From NCBI RefSeq assembly GCF_035474595.1, contig NZ_DATIND010000012.1, positions 1 through 38,627 on the forward strand: 38,627 nucleotides of DNA, given 5' to 3'. The notes under the pieces were generated by a model. That model searched no databases and was not told where the DNA came from. It was given only the letters and a program-made list of their open reading frames with translations. Position numbers and translations under genes: made by a program. Positions 6,409 to 12,043 of the stretch are shown piece by piece (the first letter of the stretch is position 1; every line of letters starts with the position of its first letter). The DNA is from Longimicrobium sp. (GTDB taxonomy: Bacteria > Gemmatimonadota > Gemmatimonadetes > Longimicrobiales > Longimicrobiaceae).

Positions 6409-7449
6409 TCACGCCGCGCGGGCGGGGCCGGGGCCGGCGGCCAGGTCCTCGATGGCGCGGCGGACGTAGATGGGGACCATCGCGCGGCGCCAGTCGGGGT
6501 CCACGATCAGGTTCTCGAGCGGGTGGCACTGCTTGAACGCCTGCGCGCCGACTGCGTCCGCCACATCCAGCAGGCGCCTGCCGGAGACGATCTTCTCCAG
6601 CCCGGTGACCACGCGCGGCCGCGCCCCCAGCGCGGAAACGACGAGCGACATCGCGCGGGCGGTCTGGTCCGGCGCCACGTCCGCCGCCACGGCGATGGAG
6701 AGGAGCGGGAAGTCCACCGACTGGCGCTGCCGCACCTTGCGGTACGCCGTCCGCACGCCAAGGCCGGGAAGGGGAATGCGGATGCGCACCAGCAGCTCGT
6801 CCGGCCGCCGCACCGTGTTCCACTCGCCGTTGGCCACGAAGAACTCGTCCACCGTCACCGTCCGCATCCCCGCGGGGGAGGCGAGGTCGACCACCGCGCC
6901 GACCGTCATCAGCACCGGCGGCGTGTCCGCGGAGTGCGCGGCGACGCACTTCTTCCCCACCCTGGTCACGTGGCAGACGTCGCCGTCCTTCTTCAGGCAG
7001 AAACCCAGCGCCTGCCGCCAGAAGAAGGTCTGGTTGTAGTACGTGCAGCGCGTGTCCAGGCACAGGTTGCCGCCCATCGTTCCGGCGTTGCGGATCTGCG
7101 GGCCGGCCACGTGCCCCGCCGCGTCCGCCAGCGCCGGGACGATGCGGCGGACGAGCGGGTGGCGCGCCACCACCGACAGCGTCTCCGCCGCGCCGACGAC
7201 GAGCTGCGCGGCCTCCGCCGAGCCCTCCGCGACGGGATTGCCGCCCGCGTCCGCCAGCCCGATGCCGTGCATCTCCGCCACGCCCTTCAGCGCGACCAGG
7301 TGGCGCGGGGTGAACAGGCGGTGCTTCATGTTCGGCATCAGGTCCGTCCCCCCCGCGATGGGGAGGGCGTCTTCCTGGCCGGTGAGCAGGCCGAGCGCAT
7401 CGGCCAGCGTGGACGGGCGGTGGTACGTGTATTCGTGAAGCCGGAGCAT
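6409..7449 (-). CDS. 4-hydroxybenzoyl-CoA reductase beta-type FAD/[4Fe-4S] subunit
   Basis: FAD-binding subunit of the molybdenum hydroxylase (xanthine dehydrogenase) family, 346 aa. FAD motifs are AGGTD (32-36) and IRNAGTMGGNL (119-129); the CO-dehydrogenase flavoprotein C-terminal domain covers about 225-335. Residues 130-170 form an insertion with cysteines at 130, 135, 151, 159 and 168. The 16-8-9 spacing of C135/C151/C159/C168 equals that of the extra [4Fe-4S] cluster ligands known from the beta subunit of Thauera 4-hydroxybenzoyl-CoA reductase. That enzyme removes the phenolic hydroxyl in anaerobic aromatic degradation. The molybdopterin and [2Fe-2S] subunits expected beside it are absent, since its neighbours are a nitronate-monooxygenase-like gene and fumC. 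The ATG giving MLRLHEYTYHRP is the family start. Real substrate unknown. Confidence 0.88.
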   Translation of the reverse strand: MLRLHEYTYHRPSTLADALGLLTGQEDALPIAGGTDLMPNMKHRLFTPRHLVALKGVAEMHGIGLADAGGNPVAEGSAEAAQLVVGAAETLSVVARHPLVRRIVPALADAAGHVAGPQIRNAGTMGGNLCLDTRCTYYNQTFFWRQALGFCLKKDGDVCHVTRVGKKCVAAHSADTPPVLMTVGAVVDLASPAGMRTVTVDEFFVANGEWNTVRRPDELLVRIRIPLPGLGVRTAYRKVRQRQSVDFPLLSIAVAADVAPDQTARAMSLVVSALGARPRVVTGLEKIVSGRRLLDVADAVGAQAFKQCHPLENLIVDPDWRRAMVPIYVRRAIEDLAAGPGPARAA

Positions 7450-7480: not shown

Positions 7481-7635
7481 GAATGCGGGGAAGATAGAAC
7501 GCCGGTGGCGCGGTGACCAGTTGGCGCGCCGAGCGACGGGGCTCTCATATCATCCCCCCGACCCTATCTCCCGACAGCAGGAGAAGGAGGAGACCTGATC
7601 GCGGAGGCCGCGCCGGAGCGTCGCCGCGGCCCCCG

Positions 7636-11170: not shown

Positions 11171-12043
11171 GTGGCCAACCTGACTACCCTTGCCTGCGGG
11201 CACCGCGTGCGCGACCCCGGGCAGACGCACTACTGCTCGTACCTGCGGCTCGACCAGCTGCTGACGCTGCAGCCCTCGCCGGAGCAGGCGCGGCACCCGG
11301 ACGAGCACCTGTTCGTGGTCACCCACCAGTCGTTCGAACTGTGGTTCACGCAGCTGCGCACCGACCTGCCGCGCGTGATCGCCGCGCTGAAACAGGACGA
11401 TGCGGGGATGGCGACGTGGCTCATCCAGCGCTGCACCGCGGTGGTGCGCATGTTCGGGCCGATGATGCGGGTGCTGGAGACGATGACGCTGGGCGGATTC
11501 TACGCCTTCCGCCATCATCTGGCCCCCGCCAGCGGCGGTGAGAGCGGGCAGTGGCACGAGATCGAGATCCTGTCCGGCGCGCGCGAGCCGGAGCTGCGCC
11601 GGTACCTCGAATTGGAGCCGGACCCCGGGGACGCGACGAGCCCCGTCGTCGGGCTGTGGACGCCGCGGCTGGCGGAGCTGTGGGAGCAGCCGTCCGTGGC
11701 CTCGGAGGCGAAGGCGCTGTTCGAGCGGCGCGGCGTGTCGCCGGCGGATGCGTACGCGGCGTCGCACGCGGGCGCGGAGCACTGGGAGCTGGTGCTGCTG
11801 GCCGAGGCGATGCTGGAGTACGACGAGGAGGTGCGGATCTGGCGCTTCGTCCACGCCCGCACCGCCGAGCGCACCATCGGCCCGGATACAGAGGGGACGG
11901 CGGCGACGACCGGGGTGAAGTACCTGGACCGCATGGCCATGCACCGCGCCTCGTTCTTCCCCTTCCTCTGGGCCGCGCGCGGCGAGATGTGGGAGCGGGC
12001 GCAGCGCGGCCCGGCACCTCGCGGGGATGGCGCCGGATCCTGA
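11171..12043 (+). CDS. Tryptophan 2,3-dioxygenase family protein (divergent)
   Basis: Haem dioxygenase family, 290 aa. Classical members open the indole ring of tryptophan to N-formylkynurenine, the first step of tryptophan degradation. Family features seen: YCSYLRLDQLLTLQ near residue 21; His52 in VTHQSFELWF, equivalent to the active-site His; FRHHL with the substrate-carboxylate Arg; and GVKYLDRMAMHRASFFPFLW, whose His258 should be the haem ligand. The usual SGFQSxQYR segment is replaced by SGGESGQWHEIE, so substrate preference may differ. The start is a GTG (11171) without a clear ribosome binding site; it gives the expected N-terminal length. No kynurenine formamidase, kynureninase or other pathway gene is nearby. 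The MBL-fold and thioredoxin genes follow on the same strand. Confidence 0.82.
   Translation: MANLTTLACGHRVRDPGQTHYCSYLRLDQLLTLQPSPEQARHPDEHLFVVTHQSFELWFTQLRTDLPRVIAALKQDDAGMATWLIQRCTAVVRMFGPMMRVLETMTLGGFYAFRHHLAPASGGESGQWHEIEILSGAREPELRRYLELEPDPGDATSPVVGLWTPRLAELWEQPSVASEAKALFERRGVSPADAYAASHAGAEHWELVLLAEAMLEYDEEVRIWRFVHARTAERTIGPDTEGTAATTGVKYLDRMAMHRASFFPFLWAARGEMWERAQRGPAPRGDGAGS

Follow-up and report, generated by a model that had tools for sequence, protein, structure and literature searches.

Among described molybdoenzymes, the closest to the one encoded here is the 4-hydroxybenzoyl-CoA reductase (HCR) of Thauera aromatica, HcrABC (1rm6). The two share a three-subunit set, a beta subunit with four cysteines spaced 16-8-9 and, by alignment and in 1rm6 numbering, an alpha subunit with Y326, C354, an RGHG motif that contains H360, E723 and E726. 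They differ in several respects. The subunits are 36-43% identical to those of HcrABC and score under the HCR equivalog cut-offs, and the beta gene is detached in the family studied here, whereas in HCR it is part of an adjacent operon. Moreover, benzoyl-CoA pathways are mostly missing from the carriers, and in relatives alpha and beta are separated by a gene of the AmiA-like or nitroreductase type. PaoABC (5g5g) and the aldehyde oxidase of Methylobacillus (5y6q) also possess an FAD subunit of the xanthine oxidase family in which a cysteine-rich loop is present, but their cysteine spacing is different, they score less than half as high as HCR beta, and they occupy a separate branch of the beta tree. 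A further xanthine oxidase family member, the urolithin C dehydroxylase Ucdh of Enterocloster, removes an aromatic hydroxyl and is likened to HCR by its authors (PMC12771579).

We analyzed a window that comprises an entire contig (C12; 38,627 bases) of a Longimicrobium genome (G000; 6.57 Mb in 163 contigs, 96.85% complete, 3.95% contamination). The beta gene lies on the minus strand at 6409-7449, flanked by 6.4 kb and 31 kb of the contig, and its product is 346 aa long. The proteins of relatives start at the position of the ATG at 7449, M1 being at least 90% conserved; a longer in-frame alternative begins at 7548. The plus-strand reading frame at 6409-7449 is unrelated to beta. In HMM searches, the product matched the FAD-binding domain PF00941 with 145 bits and CO_deh_flav_C (PF03450) weakly, with 25.8 bits against a cut-off of 25.5. 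The top NCBIfam model was TIGR03195, the HCR beta subunit, with 256 bits, below its equivalog cut-off of 404.55, and assignment to XdhB (NF043083) was also below the cut-off (136 bits versus 310). The top PDB chain by sequence was 1rm6_B at 194.9 bits, with the runner-up at 93, and Foldseek on the predicted model likewise ranked 1rm6_B first (E 3.1e-27, 36% identity). Because pLDDT is below 50 over residues 132-173 of this cofactor-free model, the cysteine loop is poorly modelled and the model says nothing about cluster geometry.

The predicted FAD and [4Fe-4S] subunit contains an inserted loop running from C135 to C168 (6946..7047, minus strand). Its four cysteines, C135, C151, C159 and C168, which by analogy with HCR are the predicted [4Fe-4S] ligands, have the 16-8-9 spacing that a preliminary description of this DNA had compared to HCR beta, and the match to 1rm6_B is exact. 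Six-frame translation of the window (77,250 codons) yields the pattern only once. All four cysteines, together with C130, are unchanged in 14/14 orthologues. Two other motifs presumably bind FAD, as in the FAD subunits of the CODH-M/XDH family. AGGTD (residues 32-36; 7342..7356, minus strand) is invariant in the 14 orthologues, as are T124, G126, G127 and N128 of T-x-GGN (residues 124-128; 7066..7080, minus strand), which directly precedes the cysteine loop.

Where are the partners of this subunit? The preliminary description held that the molybdenum and [2Fe-2S] subunits are not adjacent, and indeed neither was found anywhere in the 38,627-base window. In the genome, MoCoBD_1 (PF02738) was matched only on contigs C83, C141, C16 and C22, Fer2_2 (PF01799) only on C141, C16 and C83, and FAD_binding_5 (PF00941) only on C12 (the beta gene of the window), C83 and C141. 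C83 and C141 hold complete trios, and their FAD subunits lack the cysteine loop, having 2 and 1 cysteines. C16 encodes gamma and the first part of an alpha that runs to the left end of the contig, and C22 encodes the remainder of an alpha, starting from its right end. Both alphas match TIGR03194 best, the C16 gamma matches TIGR03193 best, and no FAD_binding_5 gene was found on either contig. The C16/C22 locus, the only type of large and small subunit locus in the genome without its own FAD gene, was recovered by the genome search that the preliminary description had proposed, and it supports the suggestion made there that beta pairs with subunits encoded elsewhere. A search of the genome for a second HCR-type beta found none.

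Three HCR-type subunits are therefore encoded in this genome, with alpha and gamma at C16/C22 and alpha incomplete, since both contigs end inside the gene. Positions 1-956 of C16 and the right end of C22 cover the same alpha region, and this 956-base overlap is 87.6% identical (12% differing). The divergence reflects two variants, which arose by duplication or were brought together by a bin that mixes species or strains. The alpha/gamma locus of a relative, G008, is syntenic with both pieces. We consider it very probable that beta is a subunit of a three-subunit xanthine oxidase family enzyme, sister to HCR, whose alpha and gamma partners are those at C16/C22 and from whose operon the beta gene has moved. 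Beta would then assemble physically with the C16/C22 products. In such an enzyme, beta would hold FAD and one [4Fe-4S] cluster, alpha the molybdenum cofactor and gamma two [2Fe-2S] clusters. By analogy with HCR, electrons would pass from ferredoxin to the [4Fe-4S] cluster, FAD, the [2Fe-2S] clusters and finally molybdenum.

Gene order and co-occurrence were surveyed in 61 genomes, consisting of the Longimicrobium genome and 60 relatives. With thresholds of our own choosing (alpha, E <=1e-150; beta, E <1e-80 in the 61 genomes or 1e-100 in a larger set of 298), a strong beta was found in 49/61 genomes and a strong alpha in 46/61. Both were present in 45 and neither in 11, while four had beta only, three of these being just 61-86% complete, and one had alpha only. 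In the family to which the window belongs, alpha and beta are on separate contigs in 13/13 genomes with both (0/13 adjacent). In the order's other two families, 26 of the 32 genomes with both carry the two genes on one contig and no more than 10 kb apart. Several betas of the window's family have long flanks and alpha is still absent nearby; in G009, for example, beta is found 578 kb from the start of a contig of 805 kb, and alpha is on a separate contig of 232 kb, at 142 kb. When 80 named beta loci were scored for alpha by tblastn, alpha fell within the locus in 59, and several of the other 21 are cut by contig ends.

The usual gene order is gamma-alpha-(AmiA-like PF07313)-beta, and in one family a nitroreductase-like gene stands between alpha and beta. 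Genes for molybdenum cofactor maturation, MocA-like and XdhC-like, flank gamma-alpha in two loci (L088 and L090). The AmiA-like gene, an odd companion for a molybdoenzyme, is present in 44/80 loci, and many operons have it in the space that separates alpha from beta (for example L075, L076, L113 and L119). Named matches come from Gemmatimonadota, including Longimicrobium and Longimicrobiaceae bins, with a few bins that carry proteobacterial labels. In the beta tree, the window gene is nested within its own family, as expected under vertical descent. The simplest history is an ancestral gamma-alpha-beta operon from which beta moved out in the window's family.

How close is this enzyme to HCR? 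The alpha of a full-length relative scored 642.8 bits to 1rm6_A, and the next PDB family scored 287.1. The HCR alpha positions Y326, C354, H360, E723 and E726, presumed active-site residues, are kept in 15/15 orthologues. The preliminary description had also called for a phylogeny of the FAD subunit. In that tree the window group joins HCR and a second Gemmatimonadota clade with support of 88/82, and the alpha tree gives the same cluster with 89/89; support in both trees is moderate and the branches are long. The remaining subunits, like beta, miss the equivalog cut-offs, with 872-903 bits against 994.55 for alpha (TIGR03194; full-length relatives) and 168-177 bits against 257.8 for gamma (TIGR03193). 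Because no subunit reaches its HCR cut-off, we file the enzyme as a sister group of HCR and not as HCR; judged by its sequence, it is probably HCR-like in function. The label HCR-type in the preliminary description thus stands as a statement of kinship but not as one of identity.

The second HCR-like clade is found in other Gemmatimonadota families, in 39/298 genomes (examples are L222-L227, from G072, G133, G062, G223, G093 and G203). Its alphas read GAKEVGQG where HCR and the window group read GAKEASEG/GAKEAGEG, and the family's catalytic glutamate (E726, 1rm6 numbering) is glutamine in 6/6 alphas checked. The exact 16-8-9 cysteines are present in 5/6 of its betas checked.

We found that the enzyme is closely associated with a divergent homologue of the oxygenase subunit PaaA. 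At thresholds of our own choosing (E <=1e-20 or 1e-15; G013, with PaaC-like only, was scored as PaaA-negative), this homologue is present in 46/61 genomes, at 80-143 bits against a cut-off of 280. All 46 carry the HCR-like enzyme, as do 4 of the 15 genomes without PaaA-like. In an evenly sampled set of 298 Gemmatimonadota genomes, beta occurs in 91 and the divergent PaaA-like gene in 97 (both in 87, beta only in 4, PaaA-like only in 10, neither in 197), so that PaaA-like is present in 87/91 genomes with beta versus 10/207 without; these counts and their p values ignore kinship. Five of the 10 genomes with PaaA-like only carry a second-clade beta. At the level of genera within the order, for the rows listed, both genes are present in 25, beta only in 1, PaaA only in 1 and neither in 10. 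Two genomes (G059 and G187) miss both genes although their congeners have both. Canonical PaaA, present in 95/298 genomes and mostly in one family, never occurs together with a window-type beta (91 genomes).

The Paa-like cluster comprises paaA-like, FeS_assembly_P, PaaB, paaC-like and PaaD zinc ribbon genes, and no PaaE was seen beside it. Beta is 2.1-7.7 kb from paaA-like in G003, G005, G006 and G009 (4/13 family genomes with both). In the Longimicrobium genome the cluster is at C70, where PaaA-like has solved PaaA as its best match (107 bits), misses the TIGR02156 cut-off (129.6 bits versus 280) and meets the Pfam PaaA_PaaC cut-off (197.1 bits). The link to PaaA may be explained in part by general catabolic poverty, because genomes lacking the enzyme also lack a benzoate-CoA-ligase-family gene, which is over cut-off in 0/11 of them versus 25/50 carriers.

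Several other readings of these data can be considered. The enzyme could be a genuine HCR that converts 4-hydroxybenzoyl-CoA to benzoyl-CoA and feeds a benzoyl-CoA pathway. Among curated families HCR is nearest to each of the three subunits, it is also the nearest solved structure for alpha and beta, the HCR-specific alpha residues are retained, and the ligase is over cut-off in 25/61 genomes, including the Longimicrobium genome. However, the equivalog cut-offs are not reached, and most carriers lack the known routes for benzoyl-CoA in a search that covered BoxB (over cut-off in 0/61), Oah (over cut-off in 2/61) and, among benzoyl-CoA reductases, the class I family PF06050 (7/61, none in the window's family) rather than class II BamB. 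Moreover, the ligase in the Longimicrobium genome, as in several relatives, belongs to a tryptophan/anthraniloyl-CoA-type cluster (C46; L192), in which a salicylyl-CoA 5-hydroxylase/oxidoreductase scores 1257 bits, over cut-off. We therefore regard a genuine HCR as possible but unlikely. Distinctly less probable is an enzyme that works oxidatively, as a hydroxylase or aldehyde oxidoreductase, and has no more than the [4Fe-4S] loop in common, in the manner of PaoABC. The medium subunits of PaoABC and the Methylobacillus aldehyde oxidase do have a related cysteine loop, and the organisms have oxygen-using aromatic pathways. Yet PaoB and 5y6q_B reach less than half the HCR beta score with a different cysteine spacing, and alpha argues in the same direction. 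Its 39 positions that are invariant in 15 alphas are common only to HCR, any other compared alpha sharing at most 19, and E723 of HCR is retained where the six other compared alphas have G.

Two readings would separate beta from the C16/C22 subunits altogether. Beta might function by itself or within some other complex, such as by serving as the reductase for the Paa-like oxygenase, which would suit an operon without a PaaE-like neighbor and the proximity of beta to that operon in four family members. However, family searches with beta gave no NAD(P)H-reductase match other than to the XDH-type FAD family, beta is usually beside gamma-alpha, and the presence of alpha and beta coincides. A role in a different electron-transfer complex, which the preliminary description had also raised, thus has little positive support, and we consider it very unlikely. 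It is scarcely credible that beta is a remnant of a lost operon, although it is solitary in its neighborhood. The gene is intact throughout the family and under purifying selection (dN/dS of 0.17, 0.27, 0.29 and 0.45 against four congeners, the lowest against G008), and alpha and gamma are kept in the genome. The preliminary description had named a combination that would refute its proposal, another reductase operon that is complete and includes a beta, together with decay of the window gene in relatives; we looked for both and found neither. Beta is an orphan by position only.

If the enzyme is an HCR-like reductase with partners at C16/C22, on what might it act? With less certainty, we suggest that its substrate is an aromatic CoA thioester from which a ring hydroxyl is removed. 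Thiolase-family genes in 33/80 beta loci and Zn-alcohol-dehydrogenase-family genes in 30/80 fit CoA-thioester metabolism, but this is weak evidence. Tryptophan breakdown was considered because of a tryptophan-dioxygenase-like gene in the window (11171-12043, plus strand; 133.6 bits, far under the equivalog cut-off of 390.7) and an arylformamidase-like gene near beta in G009. We dropped it as the enzyme's pathway since the ligase is over cut-off in only 25/50 carriers. The anthraniloyl-CoA clusters themselves (L192, L193, L194, L195 and L197) also contain enoyl-CoA hydratase, acyl-CoA dehydrogenase-like, SDR and RidA-like genes, and those of another family add a tryptophan dioxygenase and a kynureninase-like gene; some of these gene names were assigned by eye. 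HGD-D genes, which are relatives of class I benzoyl-CoA reductase, occur as pairs in 7/61 relatives. In L203, L204 and L205 (G023, G041 and G045) they are accompanied by two activase genes, and L203 is below equivalog cut-offs.

The divergent PaaABCD-like oxygenase may belong to the same pathway, and we infer that the two enzymes share a route of CoA-thioester metabolism. Speculatively, the dehydroxylated product would next be oxygenated by the Paa-like complex. Many Gemmatimonadota, mainly Longimicrobiales, might then have a hybrid aromatic pathway, so far unrecognised, in which HCR-like aryl-CoA dehydroxylation is followed by PaaABCD-like di-iron ring oxygenation, a proposal that we put forward tentatively and consider rather doubtful. 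Beta would contribute a low-potential [4Fe-4S] cluster to such a pathway from outside the operon, beside the oxygenase genes in some family members.

We found no report of an HCR-like enzyme in Gemmatimonadota in the open-access literature, to which our search was confined, and the string 'gemmatimon' is absent from the main text of a phenylacetate-pathway study that dates from 2026 (PMC13186573). Most likely, the enzyme is a widespread and unstudied relative of HCR in which beta works with partners encoded elsewhere. Automatic annotation that labelled beta a stray subunit of xanthine dehydrogenase would conceal a full enzyme. Across a common soil phylum, this sister group of HCR occurs mostly without known benzoyl-CoA routes and is tightly co-distributed with a Paa-like oxygenase. 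Together, these features make it possible to test whether oxygen-tolerant metabolism employs HCR chemistry.
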